From NCBI GenBank assembly GCA_019454045.1, contig SKCR01007813.1, forward strand, positions 372,001 through 436,000: a DNA stretch of 64,000 nucleotides. Direction: 5' to 3'. Positions 15,810-50,258 of the stretch are shown here, piece by piece; position 1 is the stretch's first letter, and each line of letters opens with the position of its first letter. This stretch comes from Zanthoxylum bungeanum (Eukaryota > Streptophyta > Magnoliopsida > Sapindales > Rutaceae). The notes under the pieces are model-generated. The model was not told the DNA's origin, did no database searches, and saw only the letters and a list, made by a program, of their open reading frames with translations. Made by a program: the position numbers and the translations under genes.

Positions 15810-15825
15810 ATCTCCCACTTGGCCT
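15810..15825 (-). other. Copia polypurine tract
   Basis: On the - strand the sequence reads CAAGTGGGAGATTG immediately before TGTTAGAC of the LTR, a typical copia plus-strand primer. Confidence 0.75.
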
Positions 15826-17427: not shown

Positions 17428-17508
17428 ATGAGGTGAGATCAGAAACCCATACCTCTCAGGTTGTTTCTTGACTCTCTCCGACCTACGTGGTCATTGTGTA
17501 TTCGAAGA

Positions 17509-19065: not shown

Positions 19066-19147
19066 CCCTTGACGATTTGGCCTTGCCCTTCTTCTTATGC
19101 TTCTTCTTCTTAACACCTCCAGTCGCCTTGGGTCAAGCCCTCGGAGT

Positions 19148-21901: not shown

Positions 21902-21917
21902 AGGCTCATTGATACCA
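21902..21917 (-). other. Copia primer binding site
   Basis: Next to the 5' LTR the - strand reads TGGTATCAATGAGCCT, close to the TGGTATCAGAGC complement of initiator tRNA-Met, with a small insertion. Confidence 0.75.
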
Positions 21918-21918
21918 T

Positions 21919-23830
21919 TGTTGGTTTCTAATATAGTCCCAAGATCATATTTGAACAATGAAAAGAATGAATACTCAAAGAAGTGAGGCGGAAACACACT
22001 TACATTGAACGGATTTTGAAGACGAAGAACACAAAAATCCTTGTTGTAATCGGCCAAGCTCCAAGTTTGGTTGAAGATGAACAAGCTCCAAGCTTTGAGA
22101 GGATTCCAAGCTCTTGAGATGGTTTCCCTATCACCTTGTATTGATTCTTTAAGTGTGCTAGCAAGAGATGAAAGAAAACAATTTTCTTTCCTTGGTGGAG
22201 AAGCTCACGACAATGCCTTAGGGAGAGAGAGAGTTTCTTAAGTTTTTTGGTGTTTTTGTTTTCTAAAAACAACAATAAAAAAAACCTTTACCTAAATTTG
22301 GTATATGCCTTTCAAAAAGTCAAAGGCCAAATTGGTGGGAAAATTGCATTAAAGGCTCTCAACAACCAACATCATGAATAGTGACTAGTTGTCACTCACC
22401 AAAAAGGTGAAATGACATCCATCACTAAAGTGACATGTGATGTGACGAGCGATGTGACGAGTGATGTCACTTGTGGCCGCACTTGATTCAAAATCGGAGT
22501 GGCCTCGCAAACACATCCCGGGCTCGGTTTCGTTAATTCCAAATTAACGAATTTTTCAATGCGACGTAATTAAATCAAATTTACTATTCACGTCGTTAGC
22601 GAATTAATTCTAAATCAATTCGTTAGCCCGATTTAAAATCCAATTTTAATTCCGCGTCGAAATCTAATTTCGTTTAATATATCGAATATATTATTTTATC
22701 GATTAATTCCGAATTAATCGTTCTCTCTCTTCTAATAGTATTTTATCCCAGATAAAATATCTCAGCTATTAATCCAAGATTAATTAAGTTCGAATCATAC
22801 GTCATCGGTGAATCTTCGGGAAGCGACCCAAGAGATCTCTGGATATGTTGGCAGTAAATTCGATCGTCGGACTATCTGAACACGTACGTACCTCGTACTA
22901 CGTTTTTTTACCGATTTACGAGACATGGTTTGCTTCTAGCAAAGCGCCATGCCTACCCAATTCTCCAGAAATATTCTTAATGGAATATACGATCTTTGTC
23001 AGGCGTAGTATACGTAGTATTGTGTATAGCGATCCAATATTTGATGTCACATACAAGGCCTGGGGCTGGAATAATGTTTTCCCCGTACGAAGCATATATC
23101 GAATTACAAGCAACTAGTCTCTTTAATCGGATAATCATCACCAAGTCATATTATCCGGATGGTTGCAACACAATTGAGAACCAGTTTTGTATCCCTACGT
23201 GATCATCATCTCCATATGACTGAAGTGATACTTCCGTCTTGACATCACACCCAATACACTACGATTCTCAATAAACCCATAAGAGGCGTACACAGAACCT
23301 GTTAAAGTCCTGGATGACCAAAACCAAAGCGTATTGATTGTCGCAAGTACTAGCGATGTAAGTCTCAGGTTAAGACCAAATACACCTACCCTGATGCGGA
23401 TTCCCATAGACACATAGTCATACTACCAATGAGATTCTGCGGGGTCTATCCAGAGCGAAGCTGTTTCCGTACCATCGGTAAACACAACCTCCTATCACAC
23501 TTGCATAAGTATCCAATACTTAAATATATGAAAACTATGTCGTTACGCTTCCATAACACGCACAAGTGCGATACTAGTCTATTCCGCATTATCGATGTCT
23601 AGTCTCGATAATACTACGACTAGGGATATTTAATGATTAAACCATTATGGATTGATATTGTCTCATATCTTATAATCCGAAACTAATCATATGGAATTTT
23701 ATCATTTATATATATTAATTAATCAAATTACAAAATGATAAAATGTAATTTCATTGCTACATAATTAATTTGTACAAAAACCACAATGTCTTTTACAAAT
23801 AGTGACGCTATGGGTCATAATTGTCTAACA
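21919..23830 (-). repeat. Copia 5' LTR
   Basis: Collinear copy of 13896-15809. On the - strand it begins TGTTAGACAATTATG at 23830 and ends CCAACA at 21919, immediately next to the PBS. It probably carries the element promoter; I could not assign a TATA box securely. Confidence 0.9.
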
Positions 23831-25311
23831 GCCACGTCAGCGCAATCATTCAGCTCCCAATCACAGCGTGCCACGTGTCACCTTATCCACTGCCACGTGT
23901 CGAGCTCTCCGCGTTCCACGCCGCTAATCACGCGCGTCGCGACGCGCGCACCTTGCCAAGGCCTATAAATTCAGCTCATTTTTCTGATTTTAGATGTACC
24001 TTCCTCTCTGAATTCTCTGATGTAAATAGGGAGTTTTATATCTAGTTTCTTTTAATTTCAGTTTTGTAATTAATTTTAATTACGTTCTTTAATAATAATT
24101 TACTTTCTTTACTTTCAGTTTTTTTATTATTCAACATGAGGAGGTAACTTCTCATTGCTAGGGTGAAAGGTAAAACTTTTATTACTGCTATTTAGATTAA
24201 TCTCCCTTAATTATAATATATTAACTACTTAAAATTTGACTTAACAATGATACCGCTATATTGGTCGGTTCGTAATCAATTATAAACTGGTTTTAATCTG
24301 ACTAAGCATGGATATCGCCTGGTTGGTCGGTTGGTAATTTCCGCCTATATGACTGGTTTATGGACTTAATTTGACTTAATCAGGTTACCGCCTATATGGC
24401 TGGTTGGTAATATCACATAAGTTAATATATTATATTAAGGGAGATATCTAAAATAGTAGTGATAAAAGTAGATCCTCTAGCCCTAGCATTTTCTTTTATT
24501 GTAATTTTCTTTATTTACTTTTCAGCATTTTACTTTATGTCTTTTATTTTTAAGTTTTTACTCGCCCTAGTTATGTGTCATAACTAAGTTAGTTATCTAG
24601 GGTTGTGATGAATTCTAATATCACCAGTTTATAAGGGGTTATTTTGTAGTTTGGGTAATTTAAAGGTTTACTTATTAAGTCTTAAGTTTAATGCGTCTTG
24701 TTAACTGACCATTAATAAGATTGATCTGGTAAATCTAAAATAAACTTGACAAATAAATTTTAGGTTTCAGCCTTAGACTTAATAGCCCACGATCTTCCTT
24801 GAGGATAGATAACCCTTTAATATATTTCCTTACAGGATAGACATATACCTGTCGGGCGGGGGTAACCTTAATTGGAACTTAATCTTAATGAATCCAGGTA
24901 ATTTGGTTGACATAGACATATGATTCAATTGGGTTATACTGGGTATTTGCGTCTGACCATCGACAGAGGCTTTCGCATAATTTCGTGTTTCAGGTTAGTA
25001 AACCGATATATTACACAAGCATGAAATAACCACTTCATCTTTTAAAAGATATTAGAAAGATTCACAACCCTAGATAGTTTCTTAATATTGAATTTTCTTA
25101 AACCTACTTTCGAGCAATTTTATTTACTTGTTTTTTTAAATTCAAAATCTTGACCATTTCAAATCAATCAATCAACCTGTTAGATACTAGTAATCATTTG
25201 ACCTCATAAAATTAATAGATTAGGTATAAAGTCCTCGTGGGATCGATACTTTTTATATTACTTGAACGATACGTGCACTTGTGTTATACGCGTGTGATTA
25301 CGCACCGGTCA
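23831..25311 (+). repeat. Athila 5' LTR, right part
   Basis: Begins with gccac, the copia target duplication, then continues the Athila LTR. It holds the promoter CCTATAAATTCAGC near 23963, the CGTCGCGACGCG patch near 23935-23945, and the U5-like end ACGCACCGGTCA at 25311. The body (24000-25300) is non-coding and collinear with 29200-30582 and 36380-37705. Confidence 0.86.
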
Positions 25312-25317
25312 AGTTTT

Positions 25318-25335
25318 TGGCGCCGTTGCCGGGGA
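25318..25335 (+). other. Athila primer binding site (tRNA-Asp type)
   Basis: TGGCGCCGTTGCCGGGGA lies 6 bp after the LTR. This is the hallmark PBS of Athila-type plant gypsy elements, complementary to the 3' end of tRNA-Asp. Confidence 0.9.
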
Positions 25336-25445
25336 CTTATTTATCTTTCACTATTAATTTTGAGGTTAGATACCTTTACTTGTATCTAATTTCTTTTTAC
25401 TTATTATTTTTTATTTTCTTGTGTTTCAGGTTCTCAGAAACTACA

Positions 25446-26800
25446 TGAGACGAACCAGAAGCTTTGAACTTCGACCGTTTGACCCGAAAATTGAAAGAAC
25501 CATCAGACAGTTGAGAAGGGAAAGGCGTGAAGGCCAAGAAGCTTTAGTCAACATGGAACCTGAACCTCTGGAAGTTGCACCACCACTACCCATTCGAGAC
25601 GGAACCATTCAGGTGGTCGACGGCTTCATTTCTTGTATTGTATTTCCTCATTTACCAGCAAATATGTGTGACATCAAAACATGCATTCAGATGATTCAGC
25701 AGTCAGTGCAGTTTGGGGGAAAAGCAACTGAAGATCCTAATACCCACATCAGCAACTTTCTGGAAGTTTGCGGCACTTTCAATTACAACCGAGAAGCTGA
25801 AGAAGCAATGAGACTACGGGTTTTTCCATACTCCTTGAAAGACAGAGCTAATGCTTGGCTACATTCACTACCAGCAGGTTCCATCACAACTTGGAACACT
25901 TTAGCCACCAAATTTCTTGCAAAGTACTTTCCACCAGCCAGAACTGGAAAGCTAAGGAATGACATCACATCCTTTGTACAACAAGACTCGGAAACTCTCT
26001 ACGAAGCTTGGGAAAGGTACAAAGATTTGCTCCGGAAATGTCTTCACCATGAGATTCCAAAATGGCTTCAAGTCCAAACTTTCTATAATGGACTTTCTGG
26101 ACTGATGAGAACCACAATCGATGCTGCTGCTGGAGGAGCTTTAATGGCTAAAGGAGAAGATCAAGCCTGGGACCTAATCGAAGAAATGGCCAACAAAAAT
26201 TCCTTGTGGCCAACATAAATGAGCATGATCCAAAGAATTGCATGAATTTATGAAGTTGGAGCCAATGCAACAGTCAATGCCAAGCTGGATCAGATATGCA
26301 AATTCGTGGAGACTCTTACCACTGGATCCACAAGTTCAGCATATGGAGGAGCACCAGAACCAAACCAACTTGAAGAGACGGTGAATTATGTCAACAATTT
26401 CAACAGACATGGGAAAAATCTATATTCCAACACCTACAACCCAGGGTAGAGGAATCATCCCAATTTTTCATGGGGCAACAATTCAGGACAAAAGAACAAT
26501 CCACCACCTGGATTCCAACAGCAGAACTATCCACCACCAGGATTTCAACAACAGAACAAAGGCCAGGAACATGAAAAAGAACCAGAAATGAAAGAATGGA
26601 TTGCAGAGATGTTCAAAAAGCAACAAGCAACATATGATCTATGTTTCAAAGCTACTCTGCTTCTATCAAAGCATTGGAGAATCAAATTGGACAACTGGCC
26701 AATGCTCAGAGTTACAGACCGCCAAGAAATCTTCCCAGCAATACAGAACCAAATCCAAGGAACCGAGGGAATGAGCAATGTCAAGCCATTACTTTGAAAA
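25446..26800 (+). pseudogene. Athila Gag
   Basis: The ATG at 25446 opens MRRTRSFELRPFDP. The retrotransposon gag domain follows: AWLHSLPAGSITTWNTLA, LAKYFPPARTGKLRNDI, LYEAWERYKDLLRKC, FYNGL. The frame stops at 26216-26218. A degraded C-terminal part in shifting frames continues to about 26800, with a proline/glutamine repeat PPPGFQQQN near 26500-26560 and the zinc-free tail typical of Athila. It would be the particle protein. It is broken by at least one stop and two frame changes. Confidence 0.87.
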
Positions 26801-26806
26801 GCGGTA

Positions 26807-27811
26807 ATGAAATCAACAAAGATGTTGGAATCAAGGCAACAATTGAAGAACTTCCAAAAGATGCAGTTCCACAGATGGAGGAAAAAGGAGCAAAGGAAAA
26901 AGAAAAATATCAGATCATTCCACCTACACCTTTTTCCTCAGCGTCTTCAGAAAAACAAACTGGACAAGAAGTTTGCTCGATTCCTGAAGGAGTTCAAAAA
27001 GCTGCACATCAACATTCCATTTGCAGAAGCTTTGGAAGAAATGCCCAGCTATGTAAAATTCATGAAAGACATTCTTTCACGAAAACAGAGATTGGGAGAT
27101 TACGAGACAGTAGCATTGACGGAAGAATGCAGTGCCATCATTCAAAGGAAACTTCCCCCGAAGTTGAAAGATCCTGACAGTTTCATAGTCCCATGCACCA
27201 TTGGAGAACATTATATCGGTAAGGCTTTATGTGATTTAGGTGCAAGTGTTAATTTAATGCCTTTTTCTATTTACAGGAAACTGCAAATTGGAGAAGCAAT
27301 GCCTACCTCAGTCTCACTACAACTTGTTGATCGAACACTCGCATTTCCGAGAGGAGTCGTTGAAGATTTCCTGGTCAAAGTTGACAAACTCATTCTCCTA
27401 GCAGATTTCATTATCCTTGACATGGAAGAAGACAAAGAAGTACCTATCATTCTTGGGAGACCATTCTTGGCTACAGGTAAAACTGTAATTGATATACAAA
27501 AATGAGAACTAACCATGAAAATGCAGGACCAAGAAGTTACCTTTAATGTTTTCAAAGCCATGAAATTCTCGAGCGATGAAAAGGAAGAAGAATGTTTCAG
27601 AGTTGATGTTGTTGATAGTAGCGTTCAGGATACTGAGCCAAATCCCACGGATACACTTGAAGCTTGCATCACCAACATGACTGACAGCGAGCTAGATGCT
27701 GAAATCCTGGAATGTATCAACTATCTTGACAAGCCATTCTGTTTCAAGTCAACACCACCAGTTGAAAGTCTGGAACTGCCAAAGAAAGATCGAATCAACA
27801 CCACCAGTTGA
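26807..27811 (+). pseudogene. Athila aspartic protease region
   Basis: Two adjacent frames. The first (to 27505) holds PFAEALEEMPSYVKFMKDIL, a conserved pre-protease block, then the active site ALCDLGASVNLMPFSIYRKL (Athila has DLGAS where most have DTGAS), then DFIILDMEEDKEVPIILGRPFL, the second conserved protease block. A stop at 27503-27505 ends it; the linker to RT continues from 27515. Cleaves the element's polyprotein when intact. Confidence 0.85.
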
Positions 27812-27839: not shown

Positions 27840-28401
27840 CTTCCGAGCCATCTCATGTATGCATTTCTTGGAAACTCTTCTGAATTACCTGTTATTATTT
27901 CTTCTTCACTAACATTGGAGGAGGAAAAAAAGTTACTGAGAGTGTTATGAGAACATAAGAGAGCCATTGGCTGGACTATAGCAGACATTCGAGGCATTAG
28001 TCCATCATTTTACATGCACAAGATTCTGATGAACGATGAGTACAAACCCACAGTGGAGCATCAACGGAGACTCAATCCAATCATGAAGGAGGTCGTGAAG
28101 AAAGAAATCATCAAATGGTTGGATGCTAGCATCATATACCCCATCTCAGACAGCACTTGGGTGAGTCTTATGCAGTGTGTACCGAAGAAATGAGGAATTA
28201 TTGTTGTCACCAATGAAAAGAACGAGCTGATTCCAACAAGAACAGTGACTGGATGGAGAGTATGCATGGACTACCGGAAGCTGAACAAAGCAACAAGGAA
28301 TGACCATTTTCCGCTACCATTCATTGACCAGATGTTAGATAGACTGGCGGGACATGAGTTCTATTATTTTTGGATGGATATTCAGGATACAATCAGATTG
28401 C
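27840..28401 (+). pseudogene. Athila reverse transcriptase, N-terminal half
   Basis: Shows the gypsy RT entry blocks in interrupted frames: an IGWTIADIRGISPSF-like stretch at 27968-28010, the VKKEIIKWLDASIIYPIS block near 28095-28145, GWRVCMDYRKLNKATRNDHF near 28251-28310, then PLPFIDQMLDRLAGHEFYYF and WMDIQD, where an aspartate is expected. Stops near 27948, 28192 and elsewhere. The domain is cut at 28401 by the solo LTR and resumes at 30588. Confidence 0.87.
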
Positions 28402-30582
28402 TGAGGAGTGGTAATTATATCACTATTTCCCACTCATTTAATCTAATATTTAGTATAGTTTCTTGAGTTGTGTGAATATTTTGGTGTGTTTTATGTTATT
28501 TTGTAGATAAATAAAGTTTCAGGACATTCTGGAGGTGATTTGGAGCAAAACAGTGAAAATTGGAAAAAATGGTATTTTGGTAATTTGCCACGTCGCGACG
28601 CCTAACGTGCGCCAAACAGTGCTAACGTGCGCCAGGTCCACGTGTTAGAATCTGAGAAAAGTTTGACTTTGCTAACATGCATTGTGCCACGTGTCACCAC
28701 ACAGCCGATCTGCTAACATGCGCCGTGCCACGTGTCATCACCCTACGGTGCCGACAGTCACCATCGCCACGTGTTGCCACGTGTCACTCTTCGTCATTGC
28801 CACGTCATCATCCACATCATCAGTTGATCGAGCCAACGTGCCACCTCACCGCCACATCACCATCAGCCAATCACGAAGTGCCACGTGTCGTAATTCTATG
28901 GTGCCGACAGTCATTTTGCCACGTGTCACCACGTCAGCGCTACGTCAGCATCAATTATTGGCTCTCTTATCCCCATCTAACACGTGGCAGATAAGAATCT
29001 GAGCCGACCAATCAGAAGCTGCCACGTGTCACAATAATTGAGCCCCAACCACCTTGCCACATGTCACCTTTTCACCTTATCCAGAATCTGCAGCTGACGA
29101 ACCAGAGCGTGCCACATCGACAGAAGCTGGCGTAGCGACGCCAAATGCCTTGGCGTTGCGACGCTGGAACCCCACCGAGGCCTATAAATTGAGCTCGAGA
29201 TTTCAGTTTCAGTTGTACCATTCTCTCTTACTTCTTTGATGTAAAGAGGGAGTTTCTCTCTCTAGTTTCTTTTAGTTTTTAGTTTTGTAAATAATTTTAA
29301 TTACGTTTTGTAATAATAGTAATATACTTTCTTACTTTTTACAGTTTTTACTATTCACCGTGAGGAGGTAACTACCCCAGTTAGGGTGAAATGTAATTCT
29401 TTTACTGTTATTATTTAGATTAATCTCCCTTAAAAATAATATATTAACTATTTAAAATATTGACTTAAAAAGGATACCGTCAGATTGGTCGGTTGGTAAT
29501 TCATCTTAATCTGGTTTAAACCTGACTAATCAAGGATACCGCCAGATTGGTCGGTTGGTAATTAAATTTTCTTACCGTCTTTATGGCAGGTTTATTTTGG
29601 TTCCGCCTTTATGGCTGGTTGAACTTAATTTGACTTAATCAGGTTACCACCTATATGGCTGGTTGGTAAAATAATCACAAGTTAATATATTATATTAAGG
29701 GAGATATCTAAATAGTAAATAGTAAAAGTTGATCTTTTTACCTTAGCATTTTATTTTATTTTATTGTAATTTACTTTTCAGCTTTTACTTTATGTCTTTT
29801 ACTTTTCAGCATTTTTACTTTATGTCTTTTACTTTTAAGTTTTTACTAGCCCTAGTTATGTGTTAGTTATCTGGGGTTGTGATGAATTCTAATATCACCG
29901 GTTTATAAGGGGTTATTTTATAGTTTGGGTAATTTAAAGGTTTACTTATTAAGTCTTAGGCTTAATGCTTCTTGTTGTCTGATCACCAATAAGATTGATG
30001 TGGTAAATCTAAAATGAACTAGACATAGGATTTTAGGTTTCAGCCTTAGACTTAATAGCCCACGATCTTCCTTGAGGATAGATAACCGTTTAATAGATTT
30101 CCTTACAGGATAGACATATACTTGTCGGGCGGGGGTAGCCATAATTGGAACTTAAACTTAATGAATCCGGATAATTTGGTTGACATAGACATATGGTTCA
30201 ATTGGGTTAAACTGGGTATTTACGTCTGACCATCGACAGAGGCTTTCATTTAGTGTTCCAGGTTAGTAAACTGATTTATTACACAAACATAAAATAATCA
30301 CTTCATCTTTTCAAAGATATTAGAAGGATTCACAACCATAGATCTTTGTGTCTTTTGTTATTTTCCTTAGTATTTTCTTTTGTCTTTTTATTTATTTAGC
30401 AAATCTACAATCAATCAAATTAATGAAGCAATCATTCTCTTCACCCTCAATTAGATATTTGTAAATAAATAGATTCAATAATTAATAACAACAGTAGGAA
30501 TTAAGTCCTCGTGGGATCGATATTTTTATACTACTTGAACGATACGTGCACTTGCATTATACGCGTGTGATTGCACCGGTCA
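28402..30582 (+). mobile_element. Solo LTR of the same Athila family inside RT
   Basis: A 2.18-kb LTR starting TGAGGAGTGG and ending GCACCGGTCA, collinear with the element's own LTRs. It is flanked by a perfect 5-bp duplication attgc (28397-28401 and 30583-30587). Joining across it gives continuous RT coding, proving a secondary insertion followed by LTR-LTR recombination. It contains TATAAATTGAG near 29182 and about eight CACGTG-containing motifs at 28630-29030. Confidence 0.93.
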
Positions 30583-31462
30583 ATTGCCATCGCCCCAGAA
30601 GATCATGATAAAACCATTTTTACATCTCCGTATGATACTTTTGCTTTCCGCAAGATGCCATTTGGATTATGTAATTCCCCTGCCATTTTTCAGCGTTGCA
30701 TGATGGTCATCTTCTCAGACATGTTGGAGTAAAGTATGGAGGTATTCATGGATGACTTCTCTGTGTTTGGAGACTCTTTTGACCATTGCTTGCAAAATCT
30801 GGAACAGGTGTTACAAAGATGGGAAGATAGAAACCCGGTACTCAACTGTGAGAAATGCCACTTCATGGCACAGGAAGCATTGTTCTTGGATACCGGATCT
30901 CACAAAAGGTAATCGAGGTAGACAAAGAAAAGATTGAAACAATTGAAAAACTACCTCCGCCGACATCAGTCAAAGGGATTCGGAGCTTTCTCGGACATGC
31001 AGGTTTTTACAGGAGATTTATCAAAGATTTTTCCAAAATTGCAAAACCTATTTGCAATCTTTTGGAGAAGGATGTGCCTTTCAACTTCACCAATGCCATG
31101 AAGCTTTTGAAATCCTAAAACAGAAGCTGGTCTCTGCTCTCATCATTGTAGTACCAGACTGGACCCTTCCATTTGAGGTGATGTGCGATGCTAGTGATTT
31201 TGCTGTAGGTGCAGTTTTGGGACAAAGCAAAGCAAAGATTTTCCACACCATCTACTACTCCAGTAGAACTTTGAATGAAGCTCAACTCAACTACACAACC
31301 ACTGAAAAGGAGTTGCTCGCAATTGTGTACGCTTTTGACAAATTCCGCTCCTATCTGCTGGGTCCCAAAGTGGTGGTCTACACAGATCATTCAACAATCA
31401 AATACTTGATCACGAAGAAAGATGACAAACCCAGATTGATCCGTTGGATACTTCTTCTGTAA
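30583..31462 (+). pseudogene. Athila RT C-terminal half and RNase H
   Basis: Resumes with AIAPEDHDKTIFTSPYDTFA and FRKMPFGLCNSPA, then the catalytic FMDDFSVFG (YxDD variant with both aspartates present). After frame changes come [20 protein letters not shown], and the RNase H block [35 protein letters not shown] and [12 protein letters not shown]. Stops near 30731 and 31460 and frame changes near 30870 and 31100 break it. It is continuous with the N-terminal half if the solo LTR is ignored. Confidence 0.88.
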
Positions 31463-31486
31463 GAATTTGACGTAGAAATTCGAGAC

Positions 31487-32909
31487 ATGAAGGAGATAGA
31501 AAACCAAGTGGCAGATCATCTATCGAGGCTCGAGAATGGAGAAACAGTTGGCAAAGAATTGTCAATCAAAGAAACTTTTCCAGATGAACAGCTATTTGCC
31601 ATGAAACAGCAGGATATCTCTTGTTATGCTGACTATGTCAACTTCATTGTATCAAGAAAATGGCCGTTGGAATGGACAACTCAGCAACAAAAGAAGTTCT
31701 TCAATGAAGTCAAACATTATGTTTGGGATGAGCCGTACCTGTTCAAACGCTGTGTTGATCAACTATTGAGACGGTGTGTTCCACAGGAAGAGGTCAACAG
31801 TGTTTTGCAACACTGTCATTCATCACCATATGGCGGACACTTCAGCGGGAATAAAACTGCAGCCAAAGTCCTACAATCAGGTTTGTTCTGGCCCACTATT
31901 TTTAAAGATGCTTATCTTTTTGCTCTTCAATGTGAAAAGTGCCAGAGAACGGGGAATATTTCCAGGAGAAATGAAGGACCTTTGCACAAATATTCTGGAA
32001 GTAGAGATATTTGATGTGTGGGGTATAGATTTTATGGGACCCTTTGTTCCATCATTCGGAAACCTGTACATCCTAGTTGCTATAGACTACGTCTCCAAAT
32101 AGGTCGAAGCAATTGCACTGACATCCGATGATTCAAAAATGGTGATCAAATTCCTTAAAAAGAATATTTTCACTCGGTTCGGAACACCTCAGGCAATTAT
32201 CAGTGATGGTGGCTCACATATCTGCAACAGATACTTCGATGCACTCCTATCCAAATATGGAGTTACTCACAAGGTTGCCACTGCTTATCATCCACAGTCA
32301 AATGGACAGGTTGAAGTTTCAAACAGGGAAATCAAAAGAATCCTGGAAAGAACCGTTGGATCAACAAGGAATGACTGGTCTACAAAACTGGATGGCGCAT
32401 TATGGGCCTATCGAATAGCTAACAAGACACCCATTAATATGTCCCCATATCAAATGGTGTTTGGAAAAGCATGTCATCTGCTAGTTGAGCTTGAGCACAA
32501 GGTGTACTGGGCACTAAAGAAGTTGAATCTTGATCCATAAGCTGCAGGAGAGAAAAGACTCCACTAACTCAACGAATTGGAGGAATTTCGCTTACATGCT
32601 TATGAGAATGCCAGATTGTACAAAGAAAAGACCAATAAATGGCATGATCGAAAAATAGTGCACAAACAGTTGGAACCAAGGCAACAAGTGTTGTTGTACA
32701 ATTCAGGGTTGAAATTTTTCCCTGGAAAGTTGAAATCAAGGTGGTCAGGTCCATTTGTGATCACTCAGGTTTTTCCATATGGAGTTGTTGAGTTACTGGA
32801 TCCCAACACCACCAACATATTCAAGGTTAACAGTCAGCGTATCAAGCACTACTGGGGAGAATCATTTGAGCGACAAAAAGAAAGTGTCACACTTTCAGAT
32901 CCAGCCTAA
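31487..32909 (+). pseudogene. Athila integrase
   Basis: Starts with the RNase H-integrase linker NQVADHLSRLENG. The HHCC zinc domain covers HCHSSPYGGHFSGNKTA ... CEKCQRTGN (31805-31960). Catalytic core: VWGIDFMGPF with the first aspartate, [14 protein letters not shown] with the second, and [16 protein letters not shown] with the glutamate. The C-terminal domain has QVLLYNSGLKFFPGKLKSRW and a gypsy-type SGPF block. Broken by frame change near 31990, a TAG at 32101-32103 and a stop near 32540. Ends ...TLSDPA, followed by a non-coding signal. Confidence 0.88.
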
Positions 32910-33047
32910 CGTTCGAGAAGTCACGTCTAGCTGACGACGTTAAACGTAGCGCTCGCAGGGAGGCAACCCATGCAATTTTTGTATATATTGTTATTTGGTG
33001 TGTTTTATTTTTGTGTATTTAATTTTTGCAGGATAAGTCATTTCAGG
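32910..33047 (+). promoter_or_regulatory. Post-integrase element signal and possible splice acceptor
   Basis: Contains GACGACGTTAAAC and AGGGAGGCAACCCA near 32931-32970, a short conserved post-pol signal seen in Athila/Tat-type plant elements. A pyrimidine-rich tract ends TTTTTGCAG near 33031, 17 bp before the ATG of the next frame. This looks like the acceptor used for a spliced subgenomic mRNA of the downstream cargo; inferred only. Confidence 0.45.
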
Positions 33048-33569
33048 ATGGAAGAAGTTCTCGTAAATCTTCACAAGCAATTTCCTTCTCTCCCTCAAAA
33101 ATATCTGATGAAAGTCTACAAAGCTCGCTTGGAACGGATGAGACTACTGATGATCAAAGGTATTCCAACTGACATTCGTTGGATTATTGAAGCACGGGTC
33201 CGATTGGCAGGTTAGTCTTCTGAATCTTTTATTTCACATCTGTCTGGTTTTGGAAGAAGCACCTATGCAAAGAAACGTAGAGCTAAGTAAATGGGTGTTT
33301 GTTACAAATGTGCACTCTGGAATTGCAATACTCGTTGTCGTTCTTTAGGAATGGTGTCTGATAATCGCGAAGACAAAATTAAATTCATTAGGGATGGCTT
33401 GAGTAAAGAGTCTTTAGATGATATATCTTTGACTCTTGAGACGCATCCCAGTGGATATGTTCACATAGCCTTCGCAAATTACATACACAATTTCAAAAGA
33501 AAGACAACAGTTAAGTCTCGGGAATCTGACTCAAAAAGACTCTGTTTGCCAATTTATAAGAAAATTTGA
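33048..33569 (+). pseudogene. Viral NABP-like cysteine-rich protein, broken
   Basis: From the ATG at 33048 one reading frame extends to 33569, with two in-frame stops: TAG at 33213-33215 and TAA at 33288-33290. Visible parts: an N-terminal helix-like region with MRLLMIKGIPTDIRW; then GFGRSTYAKKRRAK (about 33249-33287), a basic patch; then CYKC and CNTRC cysteine clusters (33300-33336); then KFIRDGL (about 33380-33400). The order GRSTYA-KRRA, two cysteine pairs, then a FIR-G block resembles the zinc-finger nucleic-acid-binding proteins of carlaviruses and relatives (Pfam Carla_C4 / Viral_NABP). It is longer at both ends than those. The family assignment is inference from motif order. Some viral members act as silencing suppressors or nuclear regulators. 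It sits in the env position of the Athila and directly precedes the LOG-like frame. Confidence 0.5.
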
Positions 33570-33840
33570 TGGGAAGCTTGTCCCTGACGCATAGACGTCA
33601 ATTAAGCCGTAAATATTTGTAGATATTATATCTCTTTGTCTTTTCCTAATAATTGTAATTTGTTTTGTTGTTTTCTTTTATTTTCTCCGACAAGATCCAG
33701 ACCTTTTTTACTATCACAATTTATTTTATTGTTAACTAATAATTGTCATTTGGCAGGTACTAGTGCTATTATTTTACTCACCCTTTTTCAGGTGTTATAA
33801 ATTCAACTCATCATTGCACTTTTGAAGACATCCAGAGTAA

Positions 33841-34493
33841 AACATCGCCACTTCAAGAAGACGAGTTGAAAACATCTGTGTGTTTTGCGGTACTAGTGTT
33901 GGTGTTAAGCCACAATACGTAGAAGCAGCACATGAATTGGGTAGAGTCTTAGCTGCAAGGAATATGCACTTAGTATATGGCGGAGGCAATCTTGGACTTA
34001 TGGGGATCGTTTCAAAGGCCGTACAGGAAGGAGGCAGTCAAGTCTTGGGAATCATCCAAAATCTTTGGCGGAGGCAAATCTTATTGGACCATCAAACGGA
34101 GAAGAACTAATTGTGCCAGGTATGTCTGAACGACTGGTAGAAATGATTAACCGTGCTGATGCTTTTATTGCTTTGCCAGGTGGCTTGGGTACATTGGAGG
34201 AAATTTTTACAGTGTTATCTTGGGCAAACTTGAACATACACCAGAAACCGCTTGGACTGTACAACGTCGAAGGATTTTATGATTTTCTTTGTGTATTTCT
34301 TGATGATGCCCGGAGAAATGGGTTCGTGACAAAACCTATGAAAGAACTCATTTTTACTGCCAGAACTGCTCCGGATCTAATTGACCAAATCTTAGCCTAT
34401 GAACCACAAATTGACCCTATCATTTCAAAGATAAATTGGTTCGAGGACGATCGTGGTAAGAGGCGTCGGATTAATCTGGATCTTAACCTTTAA
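33841..34493 (+). pseudogene. LOG-like cytokinin riboside 5'-monophosphate phosphoribohydrolase, captured copy
   Basis: LOG enzymes release active cytokinin bases from nucleotide precursors. Visible: VCVFCGTSVG-type start ICVFCGTSVGV (33874 on), AAHELGRVLAARNMHLVYGG, GNLGLMGIVSKAVQEGG, then a one-base frameshift near 34056, then EANLIGPSNGEEL, MSERLVEMINRADAFIALP with the arginine, and the signature PGGLGTLEEIF (34176-34208) with the catalytic glutamate, then WANLNIHQKPLGLYNVEGFY. Plant LOG genes normally have several introns; none is present, so it looks like a captured cDNA. It ends in a non-standard tail GKRRRINLDLNL, with a basic cluster and an LxLxL (EAR-like) motif. No ATG is seen in frame: a TAA lies just upstream at about 33838 and the first codons are AAC ATC GCC. 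Either it was fused or spliced to upstream sequence, or the start is lost. It lies between integrase and 3' LTR of the Athila, so it is element cargo. Confidence 0.85.
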
Positions 34494-35667: not shown

Positions 35668-35682
35668 TTAGGTTTGGGGGTG
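35668..35682 (+). other. Athila polypurine tract
   Basis: TTAGGTTTGGGGGTG immediately precedes the TGATGAG start of the 3' LTR. Confidence 0.8.
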
Positions 35683-37705
35683 TGATGAGTGGTAATTATA
35701 TCACTATTTTCCACTCATTTAACCTAATATTTTGTATAGTTTCTTGAGTTTTGTGAATATTTTGATGTGTTTTGTGTTATTTTTTAGATAAATAAAGTTT
35801 CAGGACATTCTGGAGGTGATTTTAGGCCAAAACAGTGAAAAAAGACAAAAAAGGCAAAATGGTCATTTCGAGCGTCACGACGCGCTGCCAGCATCGCGAT
35901 GCCTAACGTGCGCCGCACCATGCTAATATGCGCCGGGGACACGTGTCAGAATCTGAGAAGTTTGACTTTGCTAACTTGCGTCGTGGCACGTGTCAACATC
36001 ACAGCCGATCTGCTAACGTGCGTCATGACACGTGTCATCATCCTATGGTGCCGACAATCGCCATCGCCACGTGTCAGCCATGTCATTGTCCACATCAGCA
36101 GTAGACTGAGTCAACTCGCCACGTCAGCGCCACATCATCATCATCCAATCACAGCGTGCCACGTGTCGCAATCCTACGGTGCCGACAATCACTTTCGCCT
36201 CATCAGCGCAATCATTCAGCTCCCAATCACAACGTGCCACGTGTCACCTTATCACCTTATCCACTGCCACGTGTCGAGCTCTCCGCGTTCCACACCGCTA
36301 ATCACGCGCGTCGCGACGCGAGCTTCACGTCGCGACGCGCGCACCTTGCCAAGGCCTATAAATTCAGCTCATTTTTCTGGTTTCAGATGTACCTTCCTCT
36401 CTGAATTCTCTGATGTAAATATGGAGTTTTATATTTAGTTTCTTTTAATTTCAGTTTTGTAATTAATTTTAATTACGTTCTGTAATAATAATTTACTTTC
36501 TTTACTTTTTCAGTTTTTACTATTCAACATGAGGAGGTAACTTCCCACTGCTATGGTGAAAGGTAAAACTTTTATTACTGCTATTTAGATTAATCTCCCT
36601 TAATTATAATATATTCACTACTTAAAATTTGACTTAACAATATACCGCTATATTGGTCGGTTGGTAATCAATTATAAACTGGTTTTAATCTGACTAAGCA
36701 TGGATACTGCCTGGTTGGTCGGTTGGTAATTTCCGCCTATATGGCTGGTTTATGGACTTAATTTGACTTAATCATGTTACCGCCTATATGGCTGGTTGGT
36801 AATATCACACAAGTTAATATATTATATTAAGGGAGATATCTAAAATAGTAGTGATACAAGTATATCCTCTAGCCCTAGCATTTTCTTTTATTGTAATTTT
36901 CTTTATTTACTTTTCAGCATTTTACTTTATGTCTTTTATTTTTAAGTTTTTACTCGCCCTAGTTATGTGTCATAACTAAGTTAGTTATCTAGGGTTGTGA
37001 TGAATTCTAATATCACCAGCTTATAAGGGGTTATTTTGTAGTTTGGGTAATTTAAAGGTTTACTTATTAAGTCTTAAGTTTAATGCTTCTTGTTAACTGG
37101 CCATTAATAAGATTGATCTGATAAATCTAAAATAAACTTGACAAATGAATTTTAGGTTTCAGCCTTAGACTTAATATCCCACGATCTTCATTGAGGATAG
37201 ATAACTCTTTAATAGATTTCCTTACAGGATGGACATATACCTGTCGGGCGGGGGTAACCTTAATTGGAACTTAATCTTAATGAATTCAGGTAATTTGGTT
37301 GACATAGACATATGGTTCAATTGGGTTATACTGGATAATTGCGTCTGACCATTGACAGAGGTTTTCGCATAATTTCGTGTTTCAGGTTAGTAAATCGATA
37401 TATTATACAAGCATGAAATAACCACTTCATCTTTTAAAAGATATTAGAAAGATTCACAACCCTGGATAGTTTCTTAATATTGAATTTTCTTAAACCTACT
37501 TTCGAGCAATTTTATTACTTGTTTTTTTTTAAAATTCAAAATCTTCATCATTTCAAATCAATCAATCAACCTGTTAGATACTAGTAATCATTTGACCTCA
37601 TAAAATTAATAGATTATGTATTAAGTCCTCGTGAGATCCATACTTTTTATACTACTTGAACAATACGTGCGCTTGCGTTATACGCGTGTGATTACGCACC
37701 GGTCA
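35683..37705 (+). repeat. Athila 3' LTR
   Basis: 2.02 kb from TGATGAGTGG to ACCGGTCA. Promoter-like CCTATAAATTCAGC near 36355. At least seven CACGTGTC motifs at 35940-36275 and a CGTCGCGACGCG patch at 36306-36340. Followed by attgt, the target duplication. Confidence 0.9.
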
Positions 37706-37714
37706 ATTGTAGAG

Positions 37715-40715: not shown

Positions 40716-41636
40716 CATGGAAGACAGGATCTCAAATTATATAGTTTGATCAGATGTATACGTAATTATCCGATTTTAATAATATTGGCTTGGGGTTTGC
40801 AAACACAGTACCAGATCTGGATCCCAGAAATGGTGCTCTGAAGGAGGAGGGAGAAGAGAAATACAACTGAGGGGAGAGATCCGGTCTCTATGCCTCAGAG
40901 GATCAGTAACAGTTTTAATGGCAGAATTGATAAGAATATCAATCTGCAAGCATGCTTTTCGAAATAAATTACAGGAAAAATAAATAACTTTGCATTCTTT
41001 TTCAAATAGATGCTTACATTTTCTTTTGAGAGAACAAGATTTAAAACTAAACTAAGAGAAAGGTTTTTAGAAGAGAGAAATTGAAAATGGTTCAAAGAAA
41101 AACGGATGCTCTCCTCTGAGAGTTAATGGGAACTATATACCCAATCAACCAACTACTCTGAATTATTACAATTATCAAAAACAGTAAGATGCTCTGACTT
41201 TGTTCACATGGCTTTGGATGGCTTTGTCATAAAATAGTAAGATGCTTCTGCTTTTCTGACTTTTGTAATTGCTTTGAATAGTAAGATGCTCTGCTTTCTT
41301 CACATGGCTTTGGATGTTTTTGATTCTCATGGCTTTGCTTTTGATTCACATGGCTTTGTCATAAGATGCTCTTGGTCTCTGAGCACATGGCTTTGCTTTT
41401 GATTCACATGGTTTTTTCATAAGATGCTCTTGGTCTCTGAGCACATGGCTTTGCTTTTGATTCACATGGCTTTGTCATAAGATGCTCTTGGTCCCACCGG
41501 TCTTTGTTCTGAGGCTTGTTGATGCAGTAAAAAAAAATTTTGAAAATTTTCTTGTCCCACAGCTTTTTTCTCGTGATGAGAATAGTGAGTGAAGGGGAAA
41601 AGAAAATAATTTTCTTTTTCTCAAAGACTTTTTTTT
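40716..41636 (-). promoter_or_regulatory. Viral intergenic region, left copy
   Basis: Non-coding region after ORF2. A TATATA box at 41134-41139 (- strand: GGTATATAGTTCCC) is the likely pregenomic RNA promoter. Upstream of it on the viral strand lie three direct repeats (next entry). The end is at 40716, next to (TA)n, and stops just before the PBS of the circular map. Confidence 0.6.
41334..41494 (-). repeat. Three tandem 58-bp repeats in the viral promoter region
   Basis: Units at 41334-41391, 41392-41449 and a partial one at 41450-41494 share ATTCACATGGCTTTGTCATA and GATGCTCTTGGTCTCTGAGC. The right viral copy lacks the triplication. Position upstream of the TATA box suggests an enhancer. 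Confidence 0.8.
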
Positions 41637-41987: not shown

Positions 41988-43429
41988 TGATTACGCCCAA
42001 ATATGACTCGCGGTTATCGCAGTATAGCTGGGGTGTCGATTCCTCAGAGAGATGGTTACAATGAAGCTGATTCACTCAATCAAAAGCATTAACGGTAACT
42101 AAAATAAAGAAAATGAATAAATTGATAATTAAAGTAAAGATAAATAAAATAATGAAAATATATTAAAAGATAATGGCAGAGAGATATGACAAAGCTTCGG
42201 GAATCCCTCTTGCATCGAACTCCTATATTTAGTTATTGATTCCTTTTATTACACAATTGAAGGTTTCACATCCCAAACCAACAATCGGAAAATATTCAAT
42301 TCTACACATATTCAAAATCTAAGGTAATTAATGATTATTTTCCCTATGTTAACAGCACACAAAAGCCATCGTTACGAGCTATCTAACGTCGACAATATAC
42401 CCTCAGGCAATACTGCAGCAGAAGACCAACACGCAAAACAACTTTACCAGTCACAATTAAATTCGCAAACCACACATAGAAGAAGCATGACTGGATCTAT
42501 ATGGGATTTGACAAAATATAATTTATGGATTAATAAATCAAAAGATGATAGAAAATAACAACCATTAATTTTATTAAACAATTAAAAGGTTCGTAGGAAT
42601 CAAAAACATAAATAATAAAAATCCAACACAAGAGTTTATCCCTAACTTTGCCTAGGGGATTAGTTCATCATAAAAGAAATAAAAATAGCCTGGGATTGGA
42701 GAGAATTATTGTTCTGAATCATCACGACTCCGCGTCCCGGCTTCTGGACTCTGATTTCTTTTCTGAACTCTCGGCACTGCTCTTATTTTTCTCTGCTTGT
42801 GCCTCTCGGCACTACCCTCTATTTCACGCACGCAGCAGCCCTCTCGGCTGGTTCCCCCTCGTTTTTGCGCAGCTCCCATGCAATTTATACACAAAGCAAT
42901 TTAAACCTAATGCAACTTGTAATTGGGCCCACGTAACTTCCTTTTTTTCAACTTCCTTTTGTTTTAGTCAAAGTTTTGCTGCTTTCTCTCTCCAAACTCT
43001 TCTTTCTTTTTTTAGTTCACGTGAAGCTCTCTTTTTTTATTTGGTTTTGGCAATTGAAACACTAACACAAGGCAGGGCCCCACGTGTTTAGCATCTTTGA
43101 CTTGGTCAACAATTTGTCTACTCTTGCTTTATTTCTACAAATGGCGCCGTGGCGCCTTATTCCCTGGATTTTGTGTGGGATTGTGGCGCCGCGGCGCCAG
43201 TTCAATCTTTCCTCTTTGTGTTCTCGACTTCCCTGAACACTTATAATTGTCTCAGAATCCATATGTTAATATTCCTACAAATAAAATCACTAAATTAATG
43301 TAAATAATAAATATTTCTAAATTAATATAACAATCAAAATTATGTGGTAAAATATAAAATATATAACTAAATACTAAACAATAAACATAGATAAGTGATG
43401 TTTCAAAGTACATTTTCATGCACTTATCA
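41988..43429 (-). mobile_element. Solo LTR inserted in viral ORF2
   Basis: 1442 bp with TG..CA ends (tgattacgcc ... cacttatca) and a perfect 5-bp duplication atgag (41983-41987 and 43430-43434). No coding sequence; a GC-rich GGCGCC-containing patch near 43142-43200. Comparison with the uninterrupted right copy confirms the empty site. Orientation - is inferred from the TGATAAGTGCATG start typical of plant gypsy LTRs. Confidence 0.88.
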
Positions 43430-44475
43430 ATGAGCAAATGGGTTTCATGGGTATGGAATTGAAGACTCCACATCCAGACCCAAGGTAAAAAGAAATTTGT
43501 ACAGAAACAAAGAAAAGGGGGAAATCTTTTCTCTGAATCAGAGGGAACATAATGGGCTTTGAAAAGGTTTAAACAGGATTTTGCATTAGGGGTTAGGATA
43601 TCTGGGCTTGGTCCATAATAGTTCCACCAATGTTGGAACCAGTTTGGAAGGCTTTCAACGGTTATTTTGGAATTAAAGAAAAATAACCATGAATGGCTTT
43701 TCTTAGGATTTTGAATTAGGAAGGTATTAAACCACGCTTGTTGGTAATCCCAATAGGAGTAGGATAAGCAATGGTTTAATCTATTTTGGAAATTGGCAGG
43801 AAAAAATTTAGGGTTATGAAGGGGTTCTCCCCATTGTTTTGGAGAAATGACTTTAAGGATAGTGGTCGTAGAATAGGCTGGCTCCGAATGAGCATCGGAA
43901 AAGAAAAAATGTTTGAATTTCACAGATTCTGTAAATTCAAGAATGTCTTGATAAAAGGATTGGGGTTTTGACAAATCCCAAGGTTTAAGAAACCAACCCT
44001 TTGGAAAAAACTTTGAAAGAGTAATGAATGGATCAGGATTATAAAACCCATCTTCAATACTTAAAATATTTTGGTGATAGGTTTTATCATGCCAATCCGA
44101 TTTTTGTGAAGGCCTTTGTGAAAAAATTTGGGAAGATGAACTTCCACTTAAAACAACTTCTTTTTGGGTTTTTGGAAAAATAATTTCTTTGGAAGAAGAT
44201 TTTTGAATTTCTTGACTTTTTGAAAAATTTTGTAAAGCAAGTAGGAGTTCAGGGGATTTGGAAATGGATTCTATCCATTCATTTACCTGGACTTGAGAAG
44301 TAATTGCTTTGGATGAAGATTCTTCTTCCTCTTGGATTGTGTCAACCCAAGATTTTATAGGAATGCCTGAGGCTAGCTTTGGAATGGGTGGAGGAGATTG
44401 GGATTCTTTGTAAGGGCTTTGGACAGAGGGCTCAATAAGCTTGGCTTTGCCAGTGTCTTTTTTCTTGGGCGGCAT
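43430..44475 (-). pseudogene. Viral ORF2, N-terminal part (left copy)
   Basis: Starts MPPKKKDTGKAKLIEP at 44475. The ATG overlaps the ORF1 stop by one base (TAATG), suggesting reinitiation. Contains a lysine-rich start, a serine-rich linker, then a folded-looking aromatic-rich region (LSYSYWDYQQAWFNTFLI, WFQHWWNYYG). Frame runs into the solo LTR at 43434; codons beyond are not viral. No known domain recognised. Confidence 0.8.
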
Positions 44476-47400
44476 TATCTGTTTTGGAGAAATTCTCTGG
44501 TTAGAAAATCTGGAACAGAATTTTCATCTCCTTTAATAAATTCAATTTCAAAATCAAAAACACTCAAAATTGCTTGCCAACGTGCAAAAATCTGTTTGGA
44601 TGCAATGTTTTGAACATCTTTTTCTAAAACATGTTTTGCAGCTTTACAATCAATTCTTAGTAGAAATTTTTGATTTAGCAAGTCACTTTGGAATTTGGAT
44701 ATGCATAAAACAATAGATAAAATCTCTTTTTTAATAGTAGAATAATTTTTCTGACAATCATTCCAATGGGCAGAAACATATTGGACTATTTGTTCTTTAC
44801 CATTCTCAACTTGTTTTAGAATACCACCATACCCTAAGTCAGACGCATCAGTTTCAACAACTTTTGGTAAACTAGGGTTAGCTAAATATAAACAGGGGAT
44901 TTCTTTAACGGTATCCTTTATTAATCTAATAGCTTTAGTGTGTTCATGAGTCCAGGGGACAGGAACTTTCTTTAACCTATCATGTAAGGGTTTTGCAATC
45001 CTACTGATATTAGGACAAAAGTCTAGAACATAATTTAAACTTCCTAGAAATCTTTGGAGTTGGGTTTTATCAAGGATTTTATCAGGAAATTTATCAGTAA
45101 AAGCTAGGGATCTTTCAATTGGTGTAATTGTTCCTTTGGAAATGTAATGTCCTAGGAATCTAATTTTAGTCTGAAATAAAGAAATCTTTGTACTAGAAAC
45201 GGCTAGGCCAGCTCTCCTAGTGGCAAAATAAAAAGTCTTTAAATGTTTGAAATGTTGATCAATGTCTTTTGAGAAGATTAACACATCATCAATATAAACT
45301 ATGCAAAATTCAGAGTAAGGGTTATAAATGTCATTCATTATCCTTTGAAACTCAGAAGGTGCATTCTTTAAACCAAACGACATAACTGTCCATTCAAATT
45401 GTCCAAATGGAACAGTAAAAGCAGTTTTATAACGGTCGTTAGGATGAATTTGAATTTGCCAAAAACCTGACTTCATATCAAATTTTGAAAATATGAAAGC
45501 AGAGTGAAGTTTTTGAAGCAAATATTTTTTGTTAGGTATGGGATACCTAATCCATTTTAGGGCTTTGTTTAAAGGTTTGTAATTGATCACAAGTCTTGGT
45601 GTACCTCTTTCTATTTCAGAATTTTTATTCACATAGAAAGCAGCGCACGACCAAGGAGACCTAGATTTAACAATTAGTCCTTTAGACTCTAAGTCTTTGA
45701 TCTCATTCCTACAGTGTTTTTCTAAGTCCATATTCATTTGAATAGGTCTAGCTTTTGTAGGAATTTGTTTTTCATCAAAAGATGATTCATAAGGAAGATC
45801 TATCAAATGTTGCTTTCTATTCCAAAAAGCAGAAGGTAGATCAGCACAGATTTCTTTCTCAATTAATACTTTGAAATCATTAATCTTTTGTTTTGTGAAA
45901 TCAGTTTGTAGTTGTTTTTCAAGTCTTTCAATATTTAAATCCTTTTTTAAATAAAGTAAGTCATTTTGTTTTTTCTTTAACAAAACACTAACATGGTTCT
46001 GATAAACAGAACAAGCTTTCATAATATTCAAATTTCTTGTCTTAGGTTTTTCAATAAAAGAAAACTTTAATTTTTTATTTTTTGTTTTAAAGGTTATACC
46101 ATCATAATTAACAGTATAAGGGGTAATGAGGTTTATGAAAGGAGTTCCAAGGATAACAGCATGATGTATATCATTTGTTAAAAGAAAGGAAGTCCTAAAT
46201 TCAAAACCATCATTTGGAATTGAAGCATCAACTTTGGAAGAAATTTTTAGTTTTGAATTATTTGCGGCAGAAAGTCTTTCATGTGTTTTTTTATGAAACC
46301 TATTTGGAATAATAATTTCTTTGATACAATTTAGATCAGCACCTGTGTCAAATAAGGCTACTGTGTCAATTTGGAAATCAGATGAAAGGATTAGAGTAAT
46401 CCAAATTAAGTATTTTCTTGTTGTTACTTGCTTTAAAACAAAAAGAAAATCATTTGGAAGAGACTCAATATTCTCAAGATTTTGATTTTCAGGTTCATCA
46501 TTATCAGAATCTGAAATTTTTTCAGAATTATCAACTAATTGACTTTTAAGAAGAAGTTGGATTGTTTCAGAATCATTTTTCTGCTTCTCTTTTAAATCTT
46601 TTATTTCAAATTTTACTTCTTGAATTTCTTTTTGAAGGTCTTGAAAACTGGGTGTATCTTTTTTATTTTTCTTTTTACTTAGGATTTGTGTAAGATCATA
46701 AGTATTCTGTTTTAAAACAGGAGTTTTAGAAGATTCTCCTTTGTCAAAAGTCTTTAGGAGTTTGTCAAGATATTCTTTTTGCAAATCAGGATTTGAAATA
46801 TGTTTTACAATTTCAAGAAAAGTTTCTTGATCTTTAGTCAAAACATTAAGTTTCTTATTCTTTAAGTAAGAATCCGTGTCAGAATCACTATTGCTTTGAC
46901 TAGAAGTATCTGAGTCAACTAACTCATCCACTTGTAAAGGTTCAGAATTTTCTGTTACGGAAGATTCAGACTCAGAAGACTCAATAAGCAGATTTGTTAT
47001 TTTGGAAAGAATTTCGTCACTGAGATCTAACTCATGAAGTTTTTTGTTCATTCTACAATATTTTGCAGTATGTCCTTTCTTTCCACATTTATAACAAGTA
47101 GCTTCCTTATAATTGAAAAGGGCTTTAGGTCTAGAAGTGTGAGGTTTTCTATTGGATTTCTTATAAGGTTTTGAAGGTTTTTTATAGAAATTTTCTTTAG
47201 GACTAGGAGGAGATTTTTTAAATCTTTTAGAACTGTAATTCCTTTTATAAGGTTTTGAAGAACATTTTCCTTCACAATCTTTAGAGGTACTAGCTTTAAA
47301 GGGATCATAGTTGAACTGTTTACAAAAACTACCTAGTTCTTGCTTAGATTTCCTAAGCTCCCATTTTAGGCGTTTCTGTAATTTCAAGTCTTGGCAAATT

Positions 47401-47780
47401 TTTAAGCCTTCCTTATTGATAAAACTAACTAATTCACCATAGGTAAGTCTATCATAAGGGATACGGTTGTCATGGAGGGCTTTAATGGAATTCCTAACCT
47501 TTTCACCTAGAAGGGTAGGTAAACCAGCAAGGAATTTTTCTTTCCAGGTTATATTATTAGCATCATCTCTTAGAAAGAGTCGTGTAAAGAAGGTGGTTTT
47601 ATAACTTTGGAAATCACTAAGCTTTCTACATCTTAAGTTATGTAATAACTCAGCATTTTTATCACGTAGGTGAGAGGGGTCACCTATGAAATGGAGGGAA
47701 ATGGTCAAAATTAAAGTTGCAACAGCATCTTGAATAGGACTGTTATATTCATCCAGAATGGGAACATTGTCTTCATCTGT
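44475..47780 (-). pseudogene. Viral polyprotein part 2: capsid, protease, RT, RNase H (left copy)
   Basis: Same frame as the upstream part, separated only by TAA at 47781-47783. Order: capsid-like region (LHFIGDPSHLRDKN, FFTRLFLRDDAN), a lysine/serine-rich basic segment, CCHC knuckle CYKCGKKGHTAKYC (near 47045-47095), acidic serine-rich segment, aspartic protease ALFDTGADLNCI (near 46335), RT with the catalytic YIDD at 45285-45296, and RNase H with VVETDASDLGYGG. Ends REFLQNR. The frame is open for 1077 residues from the first ATG, so this copy is unusually well preserved. Reverse-transcribes pregenomic RNA in the episomal virus. Confidence 0.88.
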
Positions 47781-50063: not shown

Positions 50064-50258
50064 GAGAAACTAAACTTTTAAACTAAGACTTATGAATTTG
50101 CTTACAGGTATGGGTTTACTGCCCTATGCGGAATCCTATCCTAGACGGGACTTACAACCAGTAAAAAAAATTCAGCAAACACACAGGAGATAATTTAAAA
50201 GAAAGAAATCATACAAACCATACAATATAATACTTCCAACCACACCTAGTCTGATACC
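50064..50258 (-). other. Viral leader and primer binding site (left copy)
   Basis: Short leader. The - strand reads TGGTATCAGACTAGG near 50256, the tRNA-Met-type PBS shared with the right copy at 50449. No other features seen. Confidence 0.75.

Follow-up and report, generated by a model that had tools for sequence, protein, structure and literature searches.

Pairing of a NABP-like gene with a LOG-like gene in a Gypsy LTR retrotransposon family of Zanthoxylum bungeanum

From our analysis of a 64 kb stretch of Zanthoxylum bungeanum DNA (hereafter the window), and of related copies found throughout the same genome, we conclude that a NABP-like gene resembling those of carlaviruses and a LOG-like gene occur side by side as a lasting trait of a family of Gypsy LTR retrotransposons. 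The low dN/dS of the LOG-like gene, together with its shifted-frame controls, indicates that selection has maintained this gene over many cycles of copying, as it has the rest of the element.

The element in the window lies on the forward strand at 13378-37705, has Athila-like traits and has received two later insertions. Its 5' LTR is in two parts, the first (13378-13890) preceded by ACTGT and matching the beginning of the 3' LTR with 92.65% over 13378-13883, and the second (23831-25311) agreeing with 36197-37706 in 94.3% of 1514 columns. Between the two parts sits a nested LTR element (about 13891-23830) with LTRs of its own that measure 1.92 kb and are 96.5% alike. The primer binding site TGGCGCCGTTGCCGGGGA (25318-25335) is presumably the complement of the 3' end of tRNA-Asp, a type that we take to be linked to the Athila lineage. 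It is followed by gag (25370-26218; PF03732, E 1.4e-21) and by an open frame at 26798-27505 that aligns with other copies of the family and is assigned by position to the protease region of gag-pol; its DLGASVNLMP stretch is presumably a protease mark. The 5' part of the reverse transcriptase (27951-28466) is interrupted, its end running into an inserted LTR, and its counterpart in the related locus L023 matches RVT_1. The insertion, a solo LTR of a related element (28402-30586), gives 78-80% matches to the LTRs of the window element. The end of the reverse transcriptase and RNase H follow at 30852-31462 (family alignment; PF17917 and PF17919 in L023), then the integrase with its zinc domain, core and C-terminal part (31463-32909; PF17921, E 2.6e-11; PF00665, E 1.4e-9), a polypurine tract recognised from its sequence (35668-35682) and the 3' LTR (35683-37705), which is followed by ATTGT. 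All of these features are on the forward strand, and the target-site duplication ACTGT/ATTGT agrees in four of five bases.

The order typical of Gypsy elements, with gag, reverse transcriptase, RNase H, integrase and an extra ORF before the 3' LTR, was found in the window and L023 taken together. The two extra genes lie between the integrase and the polypurine tract and 3' LTR, that is, in the env-like position to which the original prediction had assigned them. The divergence of the LTRs over the 1514 columns shows that the window element is not a recent copy; it is decayed, with an interrupted reverse transcriptase, both extra genes broken and the remaining gag-pol spread over several frames. 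Elsewhere in the window, the stretch 43252-57252 holds head-to-head copies (43433-50260 and 57252-50448, 90% alike) containing a long frame of 1101 aa on the reverse strand (44475-47780), which by description only resembles an endogenous pararetrovirus. A 58-base unit is repeated three times in tandem at 41328-41501, with repeats 90-97% alike.

The NABP/CRP-like gene (33048-33594, forward strand) contains stops at 33213-33215 and 33288-33290 and a frameshift after about 33473. The sole piece in the window that matches Carla_C4 (PF01623), 24 residues at 33216-33290, scores 18 bits against a cut-off of 20.9 bits. A protein search with the window NABP, with X placed at both stops, returned 355 relatives, of which 120 were listed. 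The closest among these, P0121, is intact, 182 aa long and 86% identical over 82% of the query, and scores 24.5 bits for Carla_C4 (cut-off 20.9) and 28.5 bits for Viral_NABP (PF05515; cut-off 23). When five relatives including P0121 were scanned, four passed the cut-off for Carla_C4 and four that for Viral_NABP. The broken state originally proposed for this gene is confirmed, and so is its identity, as intact relatives pass the two Pfam cut-offs; the window pieces do not. Among the 120 matches listed, 56 are exactly 182 aa long, 107 carry the zinc motif C-x2-C-x4-C-x3-C and 104 a basic nuclear-type stretch ([KR]3+A[KR]), which directly precedes the cysteine motif in 97; the named taxa include Populus, Acer, Xanthoceras, Rhamnella and Orobanche, most entries being nameless. 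The predicted structure of the protein was too poor for a fold comparison (pTM 0.31), and no NABP relatives were found in viral contigs.

Like the carlavirus CRP/NABP proteins (PF01623, PF05515), whose Pfam cut-offs the intact relatives pass, the element NABP has a four-cysteine motif preceded by a basic stretch. Unlike these proteins, the element NABP is often 182 aa long and is borne by a retrotransposon, and its zinc motif is shorter than the C-x2-C-x12-C-x4-C reported for one carlavirus in the accessible part of the source. As this carlavirus motif was not found in it, we file the element NABP as a relative rather than a member of the group. In the accessible parts of PMC9650830 and PMC8839810, carlavirus CRPs are described as nucleic acid-binding proteins with a nuclear signal and a zinc finger; one of them is reported to be a plant transcription factor that alters cell size and proliferation, and silencing suppression has been reported for carlavirus CRPs.

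The LOG-like gene (33841-34493, forward strand) is divided over two frames, 33841-34110 (PF18306, E 7.4e-10) and 33945-34493 (PF03641, E 1.3e-30), and retains the tail RRINLDLNL. It had been described as near-complete, which is not correct, as it has a frameshift at about 34030-34060 and no recognisable start codon. Its proposed identity and signature are sound: the two Pfam domains are matched, and the sequence contains PGGLGTLEEIF as well as the Arg of MSER. For PF03641, the window gene scored 106.7 bits and its relative P0002 124.1 bits (cut-off 27); LOG thus passes the Pfam check from the window itself, and NABP via intact relatives only. In LOG enzymes, the PGGxGTxxE motif and the Arg have a catalytic role. 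A protein search with LOG returned 3304 proteins with an E-value of at most 0.001; among the 120 listed, 53 are exactly 217 aa long, 102 have the PGG motif and 80 the M-x-x-R (fragments included), and both motifs are retained in all 23 genomic copies picked by LOG score. In structure and family comparisons, the nucleotidase PpnN also gave weak matches. The cut-off of the NCBIfam equivalog for cytokinin LOG (NF058542), from a library built on prokaryotes, was missed with 114.4 and 122.7 bits against 300, and the substrate of the element LOG may therefore differ. Four pattern matches for LOG in viral contigs all failed tblastn.

The AlphaFold model of LOG (pTM 0.84) is confident except at the ends, and its closest solved structures are plant LOG-type proteins, with a target TM-score of 0.95 against Arabidopsis At2g37210 (2a33). 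The element LOG shares its fold and catalytic motifs with At2g37210 and At5g11950 (1ydh), but has only 40-46% identity to them in the structure match, belongs to a separate clade, carries a basic LxLxL tail and is encoded in one continuous reading frame in the element.

Searches over the 3.956 Gb genome of Z. bungeanum (51,709 contigs) gave, as first-look counts rather than copy numbers, 47,331 loose LOG candidates (PF03641), 46,456 loose NABP candidates, the top match being 99% identical to P0121, and 74,016 loose integrase candidates. All of the 150 LOG candidates scored cover 130-131 of 131 positions, and 147 lack an internal stop. By-eye comparison of 150 integrase and 150 NABP places revealed eight contigs with a NABP match 495-516 nt downstream of an integrase match on the same strand, the spacing in the window being 511 nt; one further contig common to both lists lacks this pattern. 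The 28 loci picked by NABP comprised eight returned loci and 20 of 142 other places, chosen by hand among the better-scoring part, and thus represent copies with a good NABP. LOG lies directly downstream of NABP in 27 of them, the exception (L039) being a stretch of only 2214 bases. The LOG frames of these 28 loci include seven that are single and open, nine that are single with stops, ten that are frameshifted or partial and one with an in-frame indel; in one locus LOG was not seen. The pairing, first proposed from the window as a family trait, is therefore present in other copies, and its introduction by a one-off insertion is rejected by this co-occurrence and by the numbers of loose LOG and NABP candidates. 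Among the database relatives, P0103 for LOG and P0169 for NABP both come from a contig of length 6562, which may be one and the same.

Selection was assessed as the median pairwise NG86 dN/dS, with the same alignments read in shifted frames as a control. For the 17 NABP-picked copies whose LOG could be aligned in a single frame (136 pairs), the value was 0.253 (controls 0.94 and 1.49), and for the 12 that remained when five rows with forced gaps were left out (66 pairs) it was 0.156 (controls 0.91 and 1.70). The comparison across copies suggested by the original prediction thus revealed purifying selection on LOG. These values supersede an earlier estimate of 0.24 from the 23 copies picked by LOG score, a set biased towards intact LOG. 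In that set, changes common to at least two copies were synonymous in 59 cases and nonsynonymous in 43, and singleton changes in 78 and 91 cases, respectively. In the LOG-picked loci, dN/dS was 0.36 for gag, 0.35 for protease, 0.31 for the C-terminal part of integrase and 0.55 for NABP, each from 8 to 10 rows of which half or more contain stops (7 of 10 for NABP). Constraint on NABP is weaker.

Our phylogenetic analysis, a tree by a quick method of 72 of the 140 proteins prepared, places 41 family proteins and eight copies from the Z. bungeanum genome on one side of a single branch (SH-aLRT 99), with 20 canonical plant LOGs, At5g11950 and two bacterial LOGs on the other. The element LOG family is one clade apart from the canonical plant LOGs sampled. 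A recent capture from a host LOG gene is not supported by this tree, in which host LOG genes of the same genome were not sampled. The basic LxLxL tail is found in 81 of the 109 family proteins with a C-terminal region (11 of 120 were left out by the rule for an absent C-terminal region) and in none of 120 canonical LOGs. Read by eye, LDLNL is kept in 15 of the 17 NABP-picked LOG copies. The pattern of the tail is constant and its residues vary (INLDLNL, LDLSLSL, LNLTLSL); one subgroup has LDIDLNR in its place. LOG was seen directly in an element context in the Z. bungeanum genome, and its occurrence in elements of Citrus and Populus rests on the accessible part of PMC9289625.

Several structural types carry the LOG gene, as seen in 20 loci of 10 kb taken from the 150 best LOG scores and hence biased towards good LOG frames; a set picked by LOG gives no measure of the retention of LOG relative to other genes. 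In two of these loci (L017, L023), pol is present upstream of the picked LOG, and in L024 a second, pol-bearing element lies beside the picked one. Gag, protease, the integrase end and NABP are present in seven (L011, L012, L013, L015, L018, L019, L022), which gave no match to RNase H or to the core of integrase and only short reverse transcriptase matches, to the end of the query that reaches into the LTR. Three more have LOG with only a fragment of NABP (L014, L016, L024); other mobile-element frames adjoin in L014 and L024, which makes an interruption likely. In the remaining eight (L009, L010, L020, L021, L025-L028), LOG has no neighbouring match to gag, protease, integrase or NABP; all of them except L027 are flanked by LTR sequence on either side and contain a primer binding site region. 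LOG and NABP need therefore not act as a unit.

These pol-less elements include five with a leader ORF containing a gag-type zinc knuckle (L010, L020, L021, L026 and L028, the first Cys being changed in L028); an ORF in L025 matches the later part of this leader ORF, and L009 has no ORF of at least 90 aa between LTR and LOG. The LTR pairs of L010, L021, L025, L026 and L028 are 94.5-97.6% alike over at least 1800 columns, those of L020 96.1% over 484 columns only and those of L009 78-89%. L010 is flanked by an exact target-site duplication, CCGAC. An open LOG frame of 212-217 aa is present in four of the seven LTR-flanked elements (L020, L021, L025, L026). Grouping of the element types into clades was rejected on LOG DNA (23 rows, L028 excluded), where 2 of 19 inner branches were well supported; the pol-less types consequently look like repeated losses or exchange rather than one lineage.

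Candidate expression signals precede both genes. A candidate 3' splice site, TTTTTGCAG (33023-33031, forward strand), lies ahead of NABP in the window and in six of seven other copies compared, preceded by a pyrimidine-rich stretch; the seventh copy reads TTTTTGAAG. Before LOG, a pyrimidine-CAG block is followed by the TATA-type core TATAAATTCAACTCAT (33779-33811, forward strand). Among the 20 NABP-picked loci read (L044-L063), 19 have TATAAATT ahead of LOG and 15 the full block, in which TATAAATT comes directly after the pyrimidine-rich CAG part. Nearly the same 16-base core occurs before LOG (33796-33811) and in both LTR promoters (23964-23979 and 36357-36372), giving three matches in the window against 0.06 expected for a pattern chosen after seeing the sequence. 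Among 11 other LTRs the resemblance is partial: a match to the core with up to four mismatches, against about five in shuffled sequence, was found in five LTRs and not in the other six. From the core and the CAG block, LOG may be expressed from a promoter of its own, through a spliced RNA, or in both ways.

LOG enzymes produce active cytokinin from its riboside 5'-monophosphate. The reading that we prefer, put forward tentatively and as a whole, is that the window element represents, in decayed form, a large and long-lived family of Athila type with two extra genes after pol, and that this two-gene module keeps or pushes the host cell towards a dividing, meristem-like state via cytokinin. Of this, the identities and order of the genes, their co-occurrence, the high copy number, the purifying selection on LOG and its separate clade were observed; the action on the host cell is inferred. 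LOG, expressed apart from gag-pol through an internal TATA-type promoter or a spliced RNA, would free active cytokinin from the monophosphate within the cell that harbours the active element, and the basic zinc-finger NABP would act on RNA or DNA in the nucleus, as carlavirus CRPs do. Together they might hold the cell in, or bring it into, the dividing state, which would favour reverse transcription, integration and passage to the gametes. Growth control of the host cell may thus be the common direction of the two proteins; LOG proteins are called pivotal in cytokinin activity in the accessible part of PMC9289625.

Other roles for the enzyme are conceivable. It is unlikely that LOG works for the replication of the element itself, as a nucleoside-monophosphate phosphoribohydrolase tuning or cleaning the pool of nucleotides while reverse transcription proceeds, with cytokinin a side issue, on the model of the dUTPase carried by some retroviruses. 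The constraint on LOG, at least equal to that on gag and protease (in different samples), the weak PpnN matches and the missed equivalog cut-off are in line with such a role, but the catalytic Arg and PGGxGTxEE match those of LOGs, the closest solved structures are of plant LOG type and a nuclear-type tail would be superfluous for cleaning a pool. That tail is central to a reading that we consider quite unlikely, namely that LOG has turned into, or is also, a nuclear regulator that changes the expression of silencing or defence genes. LxLxL is an EAR-type motif, the partners of which are TOPLESS-type corepressors, and its frequency among family proteins, its absence from canonical LOGs, its retention in the NABP-picked copies and the constancy of its pattern while residues change would all suit recruitment of such partners. 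The motif is, however, short, the tail is modelled with low confidence, one subgroup has LDIDLNR, and the catalytic residues are kept as well. Doubtful as a whole is the fullest version, a dedicated host-reprogramming module in which LOG, forming a separate clade and equipped with an LTR-like promoter and a tail that recruits TOPLESS, stands beside a nuclear NABP ancestral or sister to carlavirus CRPs.

Selection on LOG could also originate outside the element's own cycle, from use of some copies by the host. Some poplar members of the family are indeed annotated as ordinary LOGL10 genes, but the very many candidates, with open frames recurring across several structural types, fit better with selection on transposing source elements, and we regard host co-option as very improbable. 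That the two genes are merely passengers, captured once or recently from host sequence and useless to the element, is hardly credible: both are broken in the window, and gene transduction by LTR elements is known (accessible part of the review PMC7264820), yet the co-occurrence in 27 of 28 loci, the frame-controlled dN/dS of 0.16-0.25 and the separation from the canonical LOGs sampled speak against it. The growth-control reading remains the one that we prefer.

Two Athila-like elements similar to LOGL4 were reportedly described by Steinbauerova in 2011. A cytokinin gene on mobile DNA is also known from the Agrobacterium T-DNA, which differs from the LOG element in carrying ipt, encoding IPT rather than LOG, and in being delivered by a bacterium rather than a retrotransposon. 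The LOG domain in Gypsy elements is itself already known: the accessible part of PMC9289625, which cites Steinbauerova 2011, describes an additional LOG-type (YgdH/LOG) domain in Gypsy-type LTR elements of Citrus and Populus. That part names no second gene beside the LOG domain, and a word search of the article found neither NABP nor cysteine-rich protein. In contrast to that account, as far as accessible, LOG is paired with NABP in the Z. bungeanum elements, purifying selection has been measured and LOG occurs in pol-less derivatives. The same source describes Gypsy elements of orchids that contain an RNA demethylase domain. There too, an enzyme of host type has become a fixed extra ORF in a Gypsy family, but enzyme and lineage differ, and activity was shown in vitro. 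A word search of the survey PMC6317226 did not find extra ORF, LOGL4 or carlavirus. Within the top listings, most subscription papers being outside the scope, we found no literature that connects retrotransposons to a NABP of carlavirus type, or an EAR-type tail to LOG; the NABP pairing and the LxLxL tail were thus not found in print in the sources accessible.

The role of env-position extra ORFs in plant retrotransposons is an old open question. With its known fold, directly assayable activity and strong purifying selection, LOG makes this question testable. If the host-reprogramming module is real, control of a growth hormone would be part of the life cycle of these elements, and even pol-less derivatives would keep a useful LOG. 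Through the NABP, plant retrotransposons are tied to RNA viruses from a different family, which provides a starting point for tracing the origin of the carlavirus CRPs.
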